The notes under the pieces are model-generated. The model did no database searches. It was not told the origin of the DNA and saw nothing but the letters and a program-made list of their open reading frames with translations. From positions 62,001-126,000 of the forward strand of contig JANYGI010000084.1 of the NCBI GenBank assembly GCA_025362495.1: a stretch of DNA of 64,000 nucleotides, given 5' to 3'. Origin of the DNA: Byssovorax sp. (lineage in GTDB: Bacteria; Myxococcota_A; Polyangia; Polyangiales; Polyangiaceae). Both the position numbers and the translations under genes were made by a program. Shown one piece after another: positions 49,746 through 61,196 of this stretch (within the stretch, counting starts at the first letter, position 1; the number at the start of each line of letters is the position of its first letter).

Positions 49746-49751
49746 TATGCT
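49746..49751 (+). promoter_or_regulatory. putative -10 element TATGCT, leaderless start of orn
   Basis: TATGCT is 7 nt before ATG 49759. The alternative upstream ATG (49747) falls inside this element, supporting 49759. Confidence 0.48.
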
Positions 49752-49758
49752 CGCGCCG

Positions 49759-50310
49759 ATGGCGGACGCTCTTCAGCGCATGGTCTGGGTCGATCTCGAG
49801 ATGACGGGCCTCGAGCCCGAGGCGTGCGTGATCGTGGAGATCGCCACCATCATCACCGACGCGGAGCTCAACCTCATCGCCGAGGGCCCGTGCCTCGTCA
49901 TCCATCAGCCCGAGGAAGAGCTCGCGCGGATGAACCCGTTCGTGCGCGATCTCCACACGCGATCCGGCCTGATCGATCGCATCCGCGAGTCGACGATCTC
50001 GCTCGCCGAAGCCGAGGCCGCGACGCACGCCTTCCTCGAGCCCCTGATCCCGAAGGGGACCACCCCCCTCTGCGGCAACTCGGTGTGGAAGGATCGCGCG
50101 TTCCTCGAGCGCTACATGCCGAGCGTCGTCGGCCTGCTCCACTACCGCATGGTCGACGTGTCGACGCTGAAAGAGCTGGTGCGCCGCTGGTATCCCGCGC
50201 CATACCACGCGCCGAAGAAGAAGGAAGTCCACCGCGCCCTCGACGACATCCGCGAGTCGATCGACGAGCTGCGCTGGTATCGATCCAGGGTCTTCGCGCC
50301 GCCGGTGTAA
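49759..50310 (+). CDS. orn: oligoribonuclease
   Basis: A 183-residue 3'-5' exoribonuclease of the DEDDh type that degrades 2-5-nt RNA and linear diguanylate (pGpG), completing cyclic-di-GMP breakdown. Signatures: WVDLEMTG (Asp12, Glu14), LCGNSVWKDRAFLERYMP, LLHYRMVDVSTLKEL and HRALDDIRESIDELR (His and Asp of the last motif). It is full length. The lipoprotein gene at 50341 begins 30 bp later and may be cotranscribed. Confidence 0.96.
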   Translation: MADALQRMVWVDLEMTGLEPEACVIVEIATIITDAELNLIAEGPCLVIHQPEEELARMNPFVRDLHTRSGLIDRIRESTISLAEAEAATHAFLEPLIPKGTTPLCGNSVWKDRAFLERYMPSVVGLLHYRMVDVSTLKELVRRWYPAPYHAPKKKEVHRALDDIRESIDELRWYRSRVFAPPV

Positions 50311-51210: not shown

Positions 51211-53058
51211 TCAGCGCACGGTGACCGCGAGCCGGTAGTCGAACTGCGCCGATGCCCCCGACGCGGCGGTCGAGGCGGCGACGCGCAGGTAGTACGTGCC
51301 CGGGGCGAGGTCGTGCGCGCCGGGCTGCGACGGCAGAGTCCCCGTCCCGTCGAGGAGCGAGCAGAGGCCGCGCCCCTGCCCCACGTCGTCGTCGGCGAGC
51401 TGGTTTGCCGAGGCGTCGAAGAGCGTCAATCGGCTCTGGATCCCGGTCGATTCGCACGTCTCGGCCGCGCCTTCGATGATCTCCGCGCGCAGCGACGCGG
51501 GCATGGTGCCAGGGATCGTGAGCTTGAAATAATCGAGATCGGCCGCTGCCTGGTGGCTCCCCGTCATGTACGCGTCGATCGGGGAGAACACGCTGGCGGC
51601 GACGGCCGCATCGTTGATCTCGCTCTCGGCGCCCGCGCTCGGCTGGACGTCGACCTCGAGCGTGTAGCCGGGGATCACGGCGGCGTTCGTCGCTTGTTGC
51701 ACGCGGAGGTAATAGCCGCCCGACGCGAGGTGGAGCTCGAGCGCGGAGCACGCGCCGACGCCGCTGTCGTCGTCGACGTGGATCGGGACGCCGAGCGAGT
51801 TGAGGAGCGAGAGCTTCGTATCGGTGCCGGCGAGGCAGTCGATGCCGCTCGCGTCGAAGGTCTCGATCCGCACCACCGACTGCGCGGGCGCGAGATCGAA
51901 CGCGAACACGTCCGCGTCGCCGATGACGCCGATCGCGCCGCGGATCTTCCCGTCGCCGGTGAAGCCGACCGGGTTGATGCTGCTCGAGAGCACGCTGGCC
52001 TCGGCCGTCGTGTCGTTGGGCTCGATCTCGCAGCCGGGCTCGACCTGGCAGCTCGCCGAGCAGCAGTCGCCGCTCTGGGTGTTGCCGTCGTCGCACTGCT
52101 CGCCGGCGATGATCAGGCCGTCGCCGCAGAGCGGGCCGCACTGGCTAGGCTTGCCCGCGGCGCCTCCGCAGACGTAGCCCGGCTCGACGTGGCAGGTCGC
52201 GTCGCAGCCGTCGTTGGGCGCGAAGTTGGCGTCGTCGCAGCCCTCGCCGACGACGACCAGGCCGTCGCCGCAGATGCCGACGCACTTCGTCGGCTCGACG
52301 ACGGCGTCGCAGGTGAAGCCGGGCTCGCGCGCGCACTTGGCGCTGCAGCCGTCGTTCGCGGTGTTGTTGCCGTCGTCGCACTCTTCGCCGGGGCCGAGCG
52401 TCCCGTCGCCGCAGTGGATCGCGCAGATGCTCGGCTCCTCGATGCAGCCGAAGCCGTGCTCGGTGTGGCAGGTCGCGTCGCAGCCGTCGCTCGCCGTGGT
52501 GTTGCCGTCGTCGCACTGCTCGGTCGAGGCGACGACGCCATCGCCGCACTTCGTGGTGCAGGCGCTGGGCGCGCCCACGCAGGTGAACCCGTGCTCGATC
52601 GTGCAGGTCGCGCTGCAGCCGTCGCCGGGCTTGGTGTTGCCGTCGTCGCAGGTCTCGGCGCCGCTGAGCGCGCCGTCGCCGCAGACCGCGCACACGCTCG
52701 GCTCGCCCACGCACACGTAGCCGGGCTCGACCGCGCAGGTCGCGTCGCAGCCGTCGCCTGACGTGATGTTGCCGTCGTCGCAGGCCTCCGGGTCTTCGAT
52801 CGCGCCGTCGCCGCAGCGGGTGCAGACGCTCGGCTCGCCCGCGCAGGTGTAGCCCGGCTCGATCCCGCAGGTCGCGTCGCAGCCGTCGCCGGGCTTGGCG
52901 TTGGCGTCGTCGCAGGCCTCGTCGGCGCCGATCGCGCCGTCACCGCAGACCACGGCCGCGCGGTGCTTCGGATCGTCGATGCCGAAGACGACCCCGCAGC
53001 CGACGAGGTGCGCCGAGGCGCACGCGAGCGCGAGGAGCAGAGCGGATCGCGATCGCAT
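51211..53058 (-). CDS. Cys-rich lipoprotein with seven myxobacterial disulfide repeats and two PPC domains
   Basis: A 615-residue surface lipoprotein (HLVGC, Cys21). Residues 35-345 hold seven repeats of the DUF4215/myxobacterial cysteine-rich type, each about 42 residues with CGDG, ECDDGN (ECDDAN) and DGCDATC plus a terminal C, presumably disulfide-bonded and Ca/Asp-rich. Then come two bacterial pre-peptidase C-terminal-like (PPC) beta domains (about 345-475 and 480-615), each with DxDxFxxx-type strands and GxYYLRV endings. ATG 53058 overlaps the stop of the preceding gene. Likely an extracellular adhesin-like protein of the kinase operon. Confidence 0.9.
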   Translation of the reverse strand: MRSRSALLLALACASAHLVGCGVVFGIDDPKHRAAVVCGDGAIGADEACDDANAKPGDGCDATCGIEPGYTCAGEPSVCTRCGDGAIEDPEACDDGNITSGDGCDATCAVEPGYVCVGEPSVCAVCGDGALSGAETCDDGNTKPGDGCSATCTIEHGFTCVGAPSACTTKCGDGVVASTEQCDDGNTTASDGCDATCHTEHGFGCIEEPSICAIHCGDGTLGPGEECDDGNNTANDGCSAKCAREPGFTCDAVVEPTKCVGICGDGLVVVGEGCDDANFAPNDGCDATCHVEPGYVCGGAAGKPSQCGPLCGDGLIIAGEQCDDGNTQSGDCCSASCQVEPGCEIEPNDTTAEASVLSSSINPVGFTGDGKIRGAIGVIGDADVFAFDLAPAQSVVRIETFDASGIDCLAGTDTKLSLLNSLGVPIHVDDDSGVGACSALELHLASGGYYLRVQQATNAAVIPGYTLEVDVQPSAGAESEINDAAVAASVFSPIDAYMTGSHQAAADLDYFKLTIPGTMPASLRAEIIEGAAETCESTGIQSRLTLFDASANQLADDDVGQGRGLCSLLDGTGTLPSQPGAHDLAPGTYYLRVAASTAASGASAQFDYRLAVTVR

Positions 53059-55931: not shown

Positions 55932-56390
55932 ATGAACCCGAGATCCGCACCGCTCCTGCTCGTCCTGCTGGTGTCCCTCGCCGGCTGCTCGCGCAAATTC
56001 GCGGTCGGCGATCACGTGCTCGTCGAGTGGGAGGGCAAAGATTACCCGGCGATGATCAAGGAAGCGCCCAGCTCTTCCAAGTTCCGGGTCCACTACGACG
56101 GCTACGACGACGTGTGGGACGAGACGGTCCTGAAGGACAAGATCAAGGGCCTCGTCGAGGGCAATGTCGTCCAGCCCGAGCCGCCCGCGAAGGTCCGCGC
56201 CAAGGCCATCCAGGCCGCGCAGACCAACGTGTACAAGATCGGCGACCGCGTCCGCGTCGAGTGGCACGGCCAGATCTACCCCGCGATCATCGCCGGCATC
56301 GTCGGCCAGGAGCGCTACCGCATCCGCTACGACGGGTACGGCACCGAGTGGGACGAGACCGTCGGCCTCTCGCGGATCCAGCCCAAGTGA
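55932..56390 (+). CDS. lipoprotein with two tandem Tudor-knot/chromo-barrel-like domains
   Basis: A 152-residue lipoprotein (SLAGC, Cys19). Two similar halves of about 45 residues follow: each has GDHVLVEWEGKDYPAMI or GDRVRVEWHGQIYPAII, then RVHYDGYDDVWDETV or RIRYDGYGTEWDETV. This is the hallmark pattern of Tudor-knot/chromo-barrel (MBT-like) domains, known mainly from eukaryotic chromatin and RNA-binding proteins. A surface-exposed or periplasmic position excludes chromatin, so another ligand (basic peptide, glycan or nucleic acid) is likely. A linker of about 30 residues separates the copies. Confidence 0.8.
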   Translation: MNPRSAPLLLVLLVSLAGCSRKFAVGDHVLVEWEGKDYPAMIKEAPSSSKFRVHYDGYDDVWDETVLKDKIKGLVEGNVVQPEPPAKVRAKAIQAAQTNVYKIGDRVRVEWHGQIYPAIIAGIVGQERYRIRYDGYGTEWDETVGLSRIQPK

Positions 56391-56522: not shown

Positions 56523-58610
56523 GTGACCACCGAACTGTCCCATCTGCGAAACATCGGAATCAGCGCCCACATCGACTCGGGGAAGACGACCCTGACGGAG
56601 CGCATCCTCTTTTACACGAAGCGGATCCACGCGATCCACGACGTGAAGGGCAAGGACGGTGTCGGCGCCAAGATGGACTCGATGGACCTCGAGCGTGAGC
56701 GCGGGATCACCATCCAGTCGGCGGCCACGTACTGCACGTGGAAAGACACCAACATCAACATCATCGACACCCCCGGGCACGTCGACTTCACCATCGAGGT
56801 GGAGCGCGCGCTCCGTGTGCTCGACGGCGCGATCCTCGTGCTGTGCGCCGTCTCCGGCGTGCAGTCGCAGTCGCTCACCGTCGACCGCCAGATGCGCCGC
56901 TACGGCGTCCCGCGCATCGCCTTCGTGAACAAGCTCGACCGCGCCGGCGCCAACCCGCTGAAGGTCAAGGATCAGCTCCGCGAGAAGCTCGCGCTGAACC
57001 CCGTGCTCCTCCAGCTGCCGATCGGCCTCGAGGACAAGTTCGAGGGCGTCGTCGACCTCGTGAAGATGCGGTCCTTCCGCTTCGAAGGCCCCAACGGCGA
57101 GAAGATCGTCGAGGGCGACATCCCCGCCGACATGGTCGCCGACGCGAACAAGTACCGCGACGAGATGCTCGACCAGCTCAGCATGTTCTCGGACGAGCTG
57201 GCCGAGGCGGTGCTCGAAGAGAAGGTGACCGAAGAGGTCGTCGTCGCGGCGATCCGCCACGCGACGATCGCCCTCAAGATCGCCCCCGTGATGATGGGCT
57301 CGGCCTACAAGAACAAGGCCGTGCAGCTCCTCCTCGACGGCGTCACGGCCTACCTGCCCAACCCGATGGACGTCACGAACAAGGGCGTCGATCTCGACAA
57401 GAACGAGGAGGAGGTCACCTTCGCCAGCGATCCGAGCCTGCCGCTCGTGATGCTCGCGTTCAAGCTCGAGGACGGCAAATACGGCCAGCTCTCGTACCTG
57501 CGCATCTACCAGGGCACGCTGAGCAAGGGCGGCGAGGTCACCAATACTCGCACCGGCAAGCGCCACAAGGTCGGCCGCCTCGTGCGCATGCACTCCGACG
57601 ACATGGTCGAGATCGACTCGGCCGAGTGCGGCGACATCGTCGCGATCTTCGGCGTCGACTGCAACTCGGGCGACACCTTCACCGACGGCCGGCTCAACGT
57701 GGCCATGTCGTCGATGTTCGTCCCCGACTCGGTCATCAGCCTCACGGTCTCGCCGAAGGACAACAAGTCCCAGACGAACATGTCGAAGGCCCTCCGTCGC
57801 TTCACGAAGGAAGATCCGACCTTCCGCGTCAGCGCCGATCCCGAGAGCGGCGAGACGATCATCGCCGGCATGGGCGAGCTCCACCTCGAGGTCTACATCG
57901 AGCGCATGAAGCGCGAGTACGCCGCCGAGGTCATCACCAGCCCGCCGCGCGTCGCCTACCGCGAGACGATCACCAAGCGCGTGGACTACAACTACACGCA
58001 CAAGAAGCAGACCGGCGGCTCGGGCCAGTACGGTAAGGTCATGGGCTTCATGGAGCCCTGGACGGACGAGCCCTTCCGCTTCGACGACCAGATCTCCGGC
58101 GGCAAGATCCCGAAGGAGTTCATCTCGGCCGTCGAGAAGGGCTTCCGCTCGATGCTCCCGAAGGGCGCGCTCATCGGCGCTCCCGTCACCGGTGTGTCGG
58201 TGACGCTCGAAGACGGCGCCGCGCACGCGGTCGACTCCTCGGATATCGCCTTCCAGGAGGCCGCCCGCGGCGCCTGGCGCGAGGTCTACCCGAAGGCTGG
58301 CCCGCAGATCCTCGAGCCGATCATGAAGGTCGGCTGCGAGGGGCCGAGCGAGTACCAGGGCGGAATCGTCGGCCTGCTCATGCAGCGCCGCGGCATCATC
58401 ATCGGTAGCTCGGAAGGAGACGCGTTCTGCCGCGTCGAGGCCGAGGTGCCGCTCGCCGAGATGTTCGGCTTCTCCACGGTTCTTCGCTCGGCCTCGCAAG
58501 GGAAAGCGGAGTTCTCCATGGAGTTCTCGCGCTACGCTCTCCTCCCGGGGGCGATCGCGGAAGAGCTCATGAAGAAGTACCGCGAAGAGCTCGCCAAGAA
58601 GGCGAAGTAG
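56523..58610 (+). CDS. fusA: elongation factor G of spdEFG1/mitochondrial EF-G1 type
   Basis: A 695-residue translational GTPase that drives ribosome translocation. G1 AHIDSGKT (15-22), G3 DTPGHVD (82-88), G4 NKLD (136-139) and switch [11 protein letters not shown] are intact. The N-terminal residues [37 protein letters not shown] and [16 protein letters not shown] match human GFM1 far better than E. coli EF-G, which has AHIDAGKTT; this is the spdEFG1 group. Domains II-V are complete to GSS-type end EELAKKAK. It is not in a str operon (no rpsL/rpsG beside it). The next gene follows after 20 bp. Confidence 0.96.
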
Positions 58611-58630: not shown

Positions 58631-59950
58631 ATGTATCGCAAAGACGTCAACGAACGAAGTCCCATGCGGGTCTTCGAGAAGTCGATGCACGGGGGGCTCG
58701 GCCGGGGGAACGTCGGCGTCATCGCCGCGCGGGCCGGAGTGGGGAAGACAGCGCTGCTGGTGCAGATAGCGCTCGACGACCTGCTCCGGGACCGCAAGGT
58801 CCTCCACATCTCGCACGAGCACGCGGTCGATCACGTTCGCTCCTACTACGACGAGATCTTCCGCGATCTCGCGGCCTCGTCGAAGCTCGAGAACCCCGCC
58901 GAGGTGAAGCTCGACGTCGAGCGCAACCGGCTACTTTATTCGCACGTCGCGCCGGCCGCGAGCGGCGCGCCGTCCCCGCGCGGCGGCCGCTCGTCGATCG
59001 CCAGCATCCTCCACGCGGTGGAGTTCTCGCGCGACGTCGCTCACTTCGAGCCCGACGTCATCATCCTCGACGGGCTCGACTTCGACCACGCCGGTGAAGG
59101 CGCGATAGAAGCCCTGGCGAAGCTGGCCGACGATCGCTCGGTCGAGCTCTGGATCTCGGTCAACGTCGACGCCGCGCCGCGCGCGTCGGGCGAGCTACCT
59201 GCACCGATCGAAAGATTCGCGACTCAGCTCGACGTCGTGGTCTTCCTCGCGCCCGAGCGCGACGTGGTGCGCCTCCGCCTGCTGAAAGACCACCAGAGCG
59301 CCGATCTCGCCGACCTGCATTTGCGGCTCGATCCGCACTCGATGCGGATCATCGACGAGGACGTGCCCGCGCCGTCCGAGCGCGCGAAGAACCCGCGCCG
59401 GCATCGCCTCCTCTCGGGTGGCGGCAAGGGCGCAGAGGCCGAGTTCGGCGCCTGCGCCGAGCGCTGGGGCATGACCGAGGTCAACTACAGCTTCGCCGGG
59501 CACACCACGCTGGAGCGCAGCCGCGGCGTCGTCGAGCTCGGCGACGACGATCTCAAGAAGGGCGACTTCAGCCTCGTTTACGTGTCGAAGCGCCTCGGCC
59601 GCGTCCTCAGCGAGATCCCGCTGGTGCGCAGCATCATCCAGACGATCTGGCACCAGATCAACGGCGCCAATCAGGTGTTCGTGGTCGGCGTGATCCAGGC
59701 CGACGACACCGTTCGCGGCGGCACCGGCTGGGGCGCCGAGCTGGCGCGCCTGTGGAACAAACCGCTCTTCGTCTACGATCAGCCGAAGAAGGCCTGGTTC
59801 CGCTGGAGCGGCTCGGCGTGGGAGCTGGCGTCGATGCCGACCATCACCAGCGATACCTTCGCCGGGATTGGCACGCAGACTCTGACCGACGACGGGCGTG
59901 AGGCCATTCGCGAGCTGTTTTTGCGCAGCTTCGGCGATCCGTCGGGCTGA
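58631..59950 (+). CDS. KaiC/RecA-like ATPase fused to a C-terminal SLOG-like domain
   Basis: A 439-residue two-part protein. Residues 20-245: RecA/KaiC/DnaB-type ATPase with Walker A ARAGVGKT (33-40), a following helix ALLVQIALDDLL, HISHEH, Walker B VIILDGLD (143-150) and strand LWISVNVD. Residues 255-395: Rossmann-like SLOG domain with SGGGKGAEAEFG (262-273) binding a nucleotide, SFAGH, HQINGANQVFVVG and GGTGWGAELARLWNKP (363-378). Stand-alone relatives of the second half are small bacterial SLOG proteins of unknown role. It starts 20 bp after EF-G behind AGGGGGGG. No other annotation is offered; a nucleotide-signal sensor coupled to an ATPase is the inference. Confidence 0.8.
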   Translation: MYRKDVNERSPMRVFEKSMHGGLGRGNVGVIAARAGVGKTALLVQIALDDLLRDRKVLHISHEHAVDHVRSYYDEIFRDLAASSKLENPAEVKLDVERNRLLYSHVAPAASGAPSPRGGRSSIASILHAVEFSRDVAHFEPDVIILDGLDFDHAGEGAIEALAKLADDRSVELWISVNVDAAPRASGELPAPIERFATQLDVVVFLAPERDVVRLRLLKDHQSADLADLHLRLDPHSMRIIDEDVPAPSERAKNPRRHRLLSGGGKGAEAEFGACAERWGMTEVNYSFAGHTTLERSRGVVELGDDDLKKGDFSLVYVSKRLGRVLSEIPLVRSIIQTIWHQINGANQVFVVGVIQADDTVRGGTGWGAELARLWNKPLFVYDQPKKAWFRWSGSAWELASMPTITSDTFAGIGTQTLTDDGREAIRELFLRSFGDPSG

Positions 59951-59960
59951 CCAGGCAGCG

Positions 59961-61196
59961 TCAGGTCGACTCCGGCTCTCCCCGTAACGAGAGGAACGTC
60001 GCCGCCACGCTCTCTCCGCCGGAGAGCCGGGCGGCGGCCCACAGCTCGTCTTCGGTCATCGCGCCTGCCAGCTCGTGCATCTCGGTGATGCCGTCAGCGT
60101 TCTTGTGCTCCACGAACGCGGTCATGAACCAGCGGGCCGCCTGCACCCGATCGACGGGGCCTCCGATGCCGTCGCGGAGCCAGCGGCCGATGTGGAGCAT
60201 CGTGACCGCGGTGCCGTGCCCGGCGGCGCGGGCGAACCACGGGCGCGCCTCGTCATCGCGATCGAGCATGGCGAGCTGGTTGGCGAGCGGCAAGCAGGCG
60301 CGGGAGAGGCCCTGTTCGGCGGCCTTCTGCAGCCACGCTATCCCCTTCTCGGCGTCGACCGAGAGGCCTTTACCCTGGACCGAGGCGACACCCACGCTGT
60401 ACTGCGCGGCGGCGTCGCCCGCCTCCGCGGCGGCCAGATAGAGGGTCATCGCCCGCTCTCGATCCTTCGGGACGCCGTCGCCCGATTCGAGCAAGGATGC
60501 CAGGCTGCGCTGCGCTCCCGCGTCCCCCTTGCTCACGGCGGCCTCGAACCAGCGCGCGGCCCCGGCGCGATCGAGTCCGAGCGTCATCATCGCGGTACCG
60601 AGGGAATACTGGGCCTCGACATTGCCACTCTCGGCCGCCGCCGTCAGCGCCGGAATCAACGCCTTGGCTGCGTCCCGCGCCGGTGCCTCACCCGCTTTCG
60701 CCGCGTCCAGGAACCATCGCATCGCCGGCGCGGGTGAGCTCCCTTCGTGGACGCGACCGAGCAGCATCATCGATGGCAAGCTGCCGAGCTTCGCCGCGCG
60801 CTCCCAGTACGTCGCGGCGCGCTCGACGTCGATCTTCGCGCCTTCGCCGGTCGCGAGCATCGTCCCGACGCGGTGGAGGGCGTCGCGATCGCCGAGCTCC
60901 GCGGCGACCGTATACCAGTGCAGGGCCTTGGCGAGATCGCGCGGCGTCCCGTGGCCGAGGGCGCTCGCGGCGCCGAGGTTGTGGGCCGCCTCGGCGACGC
61001 CGGCCTCCGCGGCGCGCTGGTAGAGCGTCACGGCGCGCGGCGCGTCCTCGGGGCCGCCCTGGCCGCGCGAGAGCATCGTCGCGAGGTGGTGCGCGCCCTG
61101 CGCATCGCTGGCCGCGGCGGCCTCCTCGAAGAGCGCGCGGGCTCCGGCAAAGTCGCCGCGCTCGAAGGCGATTTTTCCGTGGTCGATCTGGCTCAT
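59961..61196 (-). CDS. Sel1-repeat protein
   Basis: A 411-residue cytoplasmic-type repeat protein with about nine Sel1-like (SLR) helical pairs, each around 36 residues, such as AVTLYQRAAEAGVAEAAHNLG, ALHWYTVAAELGDRDALHRVG and AATYWERAAKLGSLPSMMLLG (given in parts). No signal peptide is present. Sel1 proteins serve as adaptor scaffolds. GGAG lies 8 nt before ATG 61196. It converges with the SLOG protein gene (10 bp). Confidence 0.92.
   Translation of the reverse strand: MSQIDHGKIAFERGDFAGARALFEEAAAASDAQGAHHLATMLSRGQGGPEDAPRAVTLYQRAAEAGVAEAAHNLGAASALGHGTPRDLAKALHWYTVAAELGDRDALHRVGTMLATGEGAKIDVERAATYWERAAKLGSLPSMMLLGRVHEGSSPAPAMRWFLDAAKAGEAPARDAAKALIPALTAAAESGNVEAQYSLGTAMMTLGLDRAGAARWFEAAVSKGDAGAQRSLASLLESGDGVPKDRERAMTLYLAAAEAGDAAAQYSVGVASVQGKGLSVDAEKGIAWLQKAAEQGLSRACLPLANQLAMLDRDDEARPWFARAAGHGTAVTMLHIGRWLRDGIGGPVDRVQAARWFMTAFVEHKNADGITEMHELAGAMTEDELWAAARLSGGESVAATFLSLRGEPEST

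Follow-up and report, generated by a model that had tools for sequence, protein, structure and literature searches.

A RecA-fold ATPase fused to a SLOG domain directly downstream of a mitochondrial-type EF-G gene in Byssovorax and its relatives

Introduction

What could a protein that joins a RecA-like ATPase to a nucleotide-binding domain be doing directly behind a gene for elongation factor G (EF-G)? The question is raised by one gene of Byssovorax sp., found in a window of 64,000 nucleotides, i.e., the whole stretch of DNA analyzed here, from a genome of 10.8 Mb in 240 contigs. A preliminary description of this sequence had read the gene as a KaiC/RecA-like ATPase fused to a SLOG-type domain beside EF-G, and had proposed an unusual, perhaps new, sensor-effector of the kind known from immunity and stress systems.

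To our knowledge, it is not settled for what purpose certain bacteria retain an EF-G of mitochondrial type in addition to the canonical one. According to the portions of PMC4342817 at hand, spdEFG1 and spdEFG2 occur mainly in spirochetes, planctomycetes and Deltaproteobacteria, divide translocation and recycling between them, and are the forms from which mtEFG1 and mtEFG2 derive; those portions do not mention a linked ATPase. The features at the locus are as follows.

56523 to 58610, plus strand: EF-G of the spdEFG1, or mitochondrial-EFG1-like, type, directly upstream of the fusion gene (NCBIfam EF-G, 940 bits)
58631 to 59950, plus strand: fusion gene, RecA/DnaB-like ATPase and SLOG domain, 439 aa, ATG start
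58631 to 59350, plus strand: N-module, a single RecA/DnaB/RadA/KaiC-fold P-loop ATPase, residues ~1-240 (profile against PDB, fold matches)
59393 to 59947, plus strand: C-module, a SLOG domain, most likely circularly permuted, residues ~255-439 (model, phrog_768, motifs)

Results

Gene structure

The fusion ORF starts 20 nt downstream of the EF-G stop codon, and from this gap we infer that EF-G and the ATPase would be co-transcribed. Downstream lies a convergent gene encoding Sel1 repeats (59961-61196, minus strand). The phylum holds full-length relatives of the fusion protein at identities down to 36%, and the open reading frame with its motifs is therefore far beyond chance; the best named relatives are those of Minicystis rosea (74% identity) and Sorangium cellulosum (70-72%). 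An AlphaFold model of the whole fusion, built from 16 sequences, has a mean pLDDT of 81.6. The RecA/KaiC-like ATPase and the SLOG domain form a real fusion in one gene.

ATPase module

Both Walker motifs, which had been reported as intact, are present and conserved in an alignment of 76 distinct loci. Walker A reads AARAGVGKT (residues 32-40) and Walker B reads VIILDG, ending with Asp147-Gly148. Gly36 and Gly38 are found in all 76 loci, Lys39 in 75 (with one Arg), and the three residues together in 75/76. The Walker B acid is Asp in 63 and Glu in 12 loci (75/76 with either). At the usual position of the catalytic Glu, an acid (Asp or Glu) occurs in only 38/76 loci, and hydrolysis may therefore have been lost in part of the family; judged from these residues, some members of the family are likely to hydrolyze ATP with the N-module, whereas for the others this is uncertain.

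The likeness to KaiC and RecA was borne out by profile and fold comparisons. A profile of 21 N-module sequences searched against PDB matched the DnaB-like gp41 (8due, E 2.7e-9) and RadA (E 0.003), while the model aligns with DnaB, RadA, RAD51-type and KaiC cores at Z ~19-21 over ~190-220 residues, e.g., 2q6t_D with Z 20.7 and rmsd 3.0 over 205. With a RecA fold and both Walker A and Walker B, the features of the RecA/DnaB/KaiC P-loop ATPase superfamily, the N-module is a RecA-fold nucleotide-binding module. It shares its fold and Walker motifs with the ATPase core of DnaB, T4 gp41, RadA and KaiC, but differs in being a single short domain whose matches fall under the curated Pfam and NCBIfam cutoffs. 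When the single sequence was searched against these collections, the AAA, DnaB and KaiC models all remained sub-cutoff, and for KaiC, RadA and DnaB proper the NCBIfam scores were far below the curated cutoff and mostly confined to a short stretch around Walker A. The N-module was not found in one pattern scan of viral contigs, nor in the phylum to which G284 belongs (0/64 genomes, for a query without a positive control in that set).

SLOG module

The SGGGKGAE and GGTGWGAE loops noted in the preliminary description are present in the second half and near-invariant in 75 bacterial SLOG copies, which together with 7 viral rows (three identical) form the basis of the residue counts. Gly263, Gly267 and Glu269 of the first loop are each found in 75/75 bacterial copies, as are the first two Gly, the Thr and the Trp of GGTGW; its third Gly is found in 74/75. 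Near the C-terminus the protein carries GIGTQ, for which the family form is GIGTR or GTGTR. Glu370 (GGTGWxxE) is conserved in 74/75 bacterial copies and is replaced by Gln or Ala in all 7 viral rows. LOG phosphoribohydrolases have the catalytic loop PGGxGTxxE, and Glu370 presumably corresponds to the catalytic Glu of LOG. Compared with this loop, the C-module has Glu at the LOG position in 74/75 copies, Trp in place of Thr, and in the alignments no Pro before the two Gly.

The reading of this half as a SLOG domain stands on the phage family phrog_768, the motifs and the fold, but its curated SLOG, DprA and LOG Pfam cutoffs were not reached and its segment order is most likely permuted. The domain model (mean pLDDT 94.7) combines a Rossmann-like fold with the glycine-rich SGGA.G[AD/E] and GGT loops, the features of the SLOG superfamily. 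Searches of Pfam, NCBIfam and PDB with the single sequence did not suffice to place the C half: Pfam gave no family for the window's copy at E up to 10, and among 26 members YAcAr matched weakly in 11 (best E 0.003), below the curated SLOG cutoff. Since the Pfam models each cover one clade, the assignment rests on the three lines of evidence above. A profile of the C half against PDB returned a single match (E 1.2), which was taken as chance.

phrog_768, annotated as a phage 'DprA-like DNA recombination-mediator protein', matches the window's C half with E 0.052 and two stand-alone relatives with E 7e-4 and 8e-4. A tblastn search from one stand-alone C-module relative found 29 phage records (best E 1e-21), at ~24-33% identity, and 11 viral-contig loci encode relatives, seven of which were aligned. 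The C-module is homologous to phrog_768 over most of its length, the two sharing SGGA.G[SA]D, TVKGGTGW, W..W and the final G.G[TS]R, and its model matches a protein of phage Atu_ph07 (TM 0.86). The phage proteins differ in the Gln or Ala at the Glu370 position and, by the viral-contig scan, in having no ATPase module. For DprA itself, no Pfam or NCBIfam family was found for the window protein at E up to 10, and none in Pfam for the 26 members at E up to 1; as far as these matches go, the C-module is DprA-like only via phrog_768. On one viral contig (L094, 40-3678) the SLOG domain forms part of the C-terminal region of a protein of 1212 aa.

Circular permutation of the C-module is most likely, as indicated by re-ordering the sequence and by comparison with 3imk. 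When the C-terminal GIGTR-type segment was put first, the phrog_768 score rose in all three members compared (from 20.2 to 25.8, from 20.0 to 25.2 and from 14.1 to 16.1 bits; for the window, the stretch in native order was a few residues longer than the re-ordered one), and the start of the match shifted from profile position 31-33 to position 5-6. YAcAr rose from 15.2 to 18.9 bits (cutoff 28.2) in one of two members compared both ways, and was absent from the second member and from the re-ordered window half. Among the PDB chains compared, the model is closest to 3imk (Z 14.3, against 5.7 for the second-best chain), a putative molybdenum carrier of the same fold (rmsd 3.2, 146 aligned, 12% identity), with which the C-module is colinear over most of the domain. 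We take the Pfam family of 3imk to be PF12694 (cpYpsA); this family matched 1/26 members (E 0.037), and a search for it found 0/20 relatives and 0/14 control genomes, so that the controls were equally silent. PMC6459960 gives a GxD/E motif as a substrate-binding signature of the YpsA clade.

Elongation factor type and gene adjacency

The adjoining gene does encode EF-G, as had been described, but of the mitochondrial-EFG1-like type and not the canonical one. In a comparison of the window's EF-G with PDB, human mitochondrial EFG1 is the best match (766 bits, with T. thermophilus EF-G at 645), as expected of spdEFG1, whereas a second EF-G of the same genome shows the reversed order (524 and 900 bits, respectively); the PDB-wide comparison covers the window's copy, and the spdEFG1 type is assigned by these scores. 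On this opposite score order, the fusion-linked EF-G belongs to the spdEFG1 kind, and the second EF-G, elsewhere in the genome, is canonical. A further EF-G homologue of the window's genome (L104, G000:C161:85711-87192) matches query residues 3-485 only, in an open frame of 551 aa, and may be a truncated form or a frameshift.

The link to EF-G proved far stronger than one window could show. After removal of 12 duplicates, 76 distinct N-module loci remained, of which 74 were testable because two (L020 and L146) reach a contig edge upstream. EF-G lies directly upstream on the same strand in 73 of these 74 loci from the phylum and a second phylum-level group. An additional fused locus (L172, in the phylum of L048, from a record named Acidobacteria) also has EF-G directly upstream, giving 74/75 for a set that contains near relatives, e.g., five Sorangium loci. 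The exception is the fusion of G132 (L031/L153; L153 9345-10610), which has no EF-G within 1.5 kb upstream. The pairs come from Myxococcota, the second phylum-level group (7/7 genomes) and one genome of a third phylum, the gap ranges from -7 to 189 nt (a measure that counts the EF-G stop codon), and the neighbours other than EF-G vary. With 74 of 75 testable loci, the EF-G neighbour of the ATPase is not incidental.

The canonical-type EF-Gs of related genomes are separate genes, and behind none of those fetched was an N-module found; by eye, they are followed by tuf in 5 cases and by ribosomal-protein genes in 3, the rest having another gene or little readable sequence. In 182 genomes no N-module was detected; 18 of these were searched for EF-G, which was found in all 18, 11 of them having only copies 44-49% identical to that of the window. 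The other seven (G006, G032, G036, G037 with 357 nt readable, G056, G128 and G175) have a copy that shares 58-69% identity with the EF-G of the window and is not followed by an N-module.

Upstream of EF-G in split-module genomes, we found fmt-like formyltransferase genes in 9 loci, WcaF-like acetyltransferase genes in 7 and IF-1 in 4 (loci with such genes include L056, L058, L064, L070, L076 and L084). Both IF-1 copies tested score over the NCBIfam cutoff. The three fmt-like genes tested score below the fmt cutoff and lie near a sugar-acetyltransferase-like gene, so the fmt-like gene is possibly a sugar formyltransferase. In the window, a small protein with Tudor-knot-like repeats is encoded just upstream of EF-G (55932-56387, plus strand); four more flank-set loci fall into its cluster, two of which represent one contig.

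Distribution of fused and separate modules

Among 282 genomes of the phylum, the N-module was found in 100 and the C-module in 91. Both occur in 83 genomes, the N-module only in 17, the C-module only in 8 and neither in 174, which corresponds to an odds ratio of 106 that ignores kinship. By coordinates, the modules are fused in 57 of the 83 genomes with both and apart in 26, three of which are fragment-based (G230, G238 and G248). Some single-module calls are doubtful, as the N-module of G127 reaches the contig end and the C-module of G232 lies at a contig end, and G156 was tallied as C only, yet has a divergent N half. A survey of the fusion and its neighbours gives 57 fused genomes in the phylum, with EF-G as the near-invariant neighbour.

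Fused and split-apart arrangements were never found within one family. On quick trees in which contig-cut rows were scored as split, the label changes 4 times for the N-module and 3 times for the C-module. In split genomes the ATPase remains beside EF-G, while the SLOG gene is elsewhere or missing; the core unit therefore looks like EF-G plus ATPase, to which many lineages have SLOG fused as an accessory. The N-module occurs without the C-module in the 17 genomes above, several of them >90% complete, and at E 1e-6 the C-module was found in 0/7 genomes of the second phylum-level group (that of G282, without a positive control there). Going by this gene content, the SLOG half is dispensable.

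Conversely, the genomes of four stand-alone C-module loci (L046, L047, L048 and L050) have no N-module (4/4). In the phylum of L048, the C-module occurs in 13/149 genomes, in at least one as a fusion behind EF-G. On the C-module tree, 27 stand-alone copies form one group (support 91). One neighbour family recurs at varying positions in 5 stand-alone loci, and the one member tested is a sulfotransferase. A neighbour cluster from 9 loci was rejected as shadow ORFs, since they overlap the SLOG gene in antisense in 7/9.

No description of the fusion, or of its link to EF-G, was found in the open-access literature, to which our coverage was confined, and the parts seen of PMC4342817, PMC7824862, PMC7159879, PMC9503650 and PMC6459960 describe neither. 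The architecture first taken as unusual or new is in this sense undescribed, but it occurs in many families, while others have the two modules as separate genes.

Discussion

Computation establishes the two folds (as predicted models), the conserved nucleotide-site residues, the EF-G adjacency and the existence of fused and split forms. Our main reading, to which we give a probability of about 0.45, is that the fusion serves as an accessory to EF-G of the spdEFG1 form. Because the adjacency is so strict, a gene in this position most likely serves the spdEFG1-type EF-G. The N-module ATPase would be co-expressed with EF-G1 and act on EF-G1 itself or on the ribosomes that it serves, probably as an oligomer like its fold relatives. 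The permuted SLOG domain may bind a nucleotide, either a modified one or one of the AMP, NAD or ADP-ribose type, and perhaps cleave it at the base-ribose bond, and this binding could tie the ATPase to the nucleotide state of the cell. The oligomer, the action on EF-G1 or the ribosome, the catalysis or sensing by SLOG and the direction of control are all what we infer from folds, residues and gene order.

The same gene order could also arise if the ATPase works in an unrelated process and shares a transcript with EF-G because this secures high, growth-linked expression. Gene order can persist by co-transcription alone, and there are both similar EF-Gs without the ATPase in some genomes and, in G132, a fusion without an EF-G neighbour. 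However, adjacency in 74/75 loci across three phylum-level groups while the other neighbours change would be unusual if neutral, and the partner is an spdEFG1-like gene instead of the canonical EF-G, which makes this explanation unlikely. The domains themselves suggest a recombination mediator, in which a RecA-family ATPase and a DprA-like domain would load or regulate a recombinase on single-stranded DNA and EF-G would lend only its promoter. By sequence, the N-module has its best solved relatives among DNA helicase and RadA domains, the phage relatives of the C-module are partly annotated as DprA-like mediators, and part of PMC12386762 presents DprA as a RecA mediator. The phage label is an annotation and not a tested function, though, and the SLOG half appears permuted, with 3imk as its nearest fold among the chains compared. 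As the ATPase also stays beside EF-G in split genomes and no DNA-repair gene appears among the shared neighbours identified (a minority of all neighbours), we consider such a mediator improbable.

Argyrin acts on EF-G. A role in stress or self-protection, where spdEFG1 and the ATPase sustain translation when canonical EF-G is blocked, e.g., by argyrin, and SLOG reports the stress, would fit the presence of a canonical EF-G in the same genome, and a literature search on elongation factor G and Sorangium returned a paper on argyrin B. But the pair occurs across many families, a spread that so special a use would not require, and this role is quite improbable. The immune sensor-effector of the preliminary description has a parallel in ThsA of Thoeris, in which, according to part of PMC9503650, SLOG domains sense cyclic ADP-ribose variants and the SLOG sensor is joined to a second functional domain, as in the fusion. 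That partner is a sirtuin NADase, however, and not a RecA-like ATPase, and we found no defence context: the best PADLOC match has an E of only 0.0068, plasmids gave no match, and the location behind EF-G is fixed and housekeeping-like. An immune function is thus very improbable, and this part of the earlier proposal found no support.

We take spdEFG1 to be the translocase of the spdEFG1/spdEFG2 pair. Its near-invariant ATPase neighbour, joined to SLOG in some lineages and encoded apart from it in others, offers a directly testable lead on the needs or the control of a mitochondrial-type EF-G, and the C-module would be a candidate for a SLOG role outside immunity and hormone metabolism. A bolder version, possible but in our view doubtful, is a new translation-control system. 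In it, an ATPase assembly would be dedicated to spdEFG1, and the permuted SLOG domain would switch this assembly by sensing or destroying a nucleotide. If true, translocation would follow the nucleotide or NAD state of the cell, and EF-G would have a partner of a new kind.

Elsewhere in the window, two genes were noted by eye. The gene at 49747-50310 (plus strand) encodes what we assume, from its resemblance, to be an oligoribonuclease, and the gene at 51211-53058 (minus strand) encodes a protein with many cysteine-rich CGDG..CDDGN..DGC repeats.
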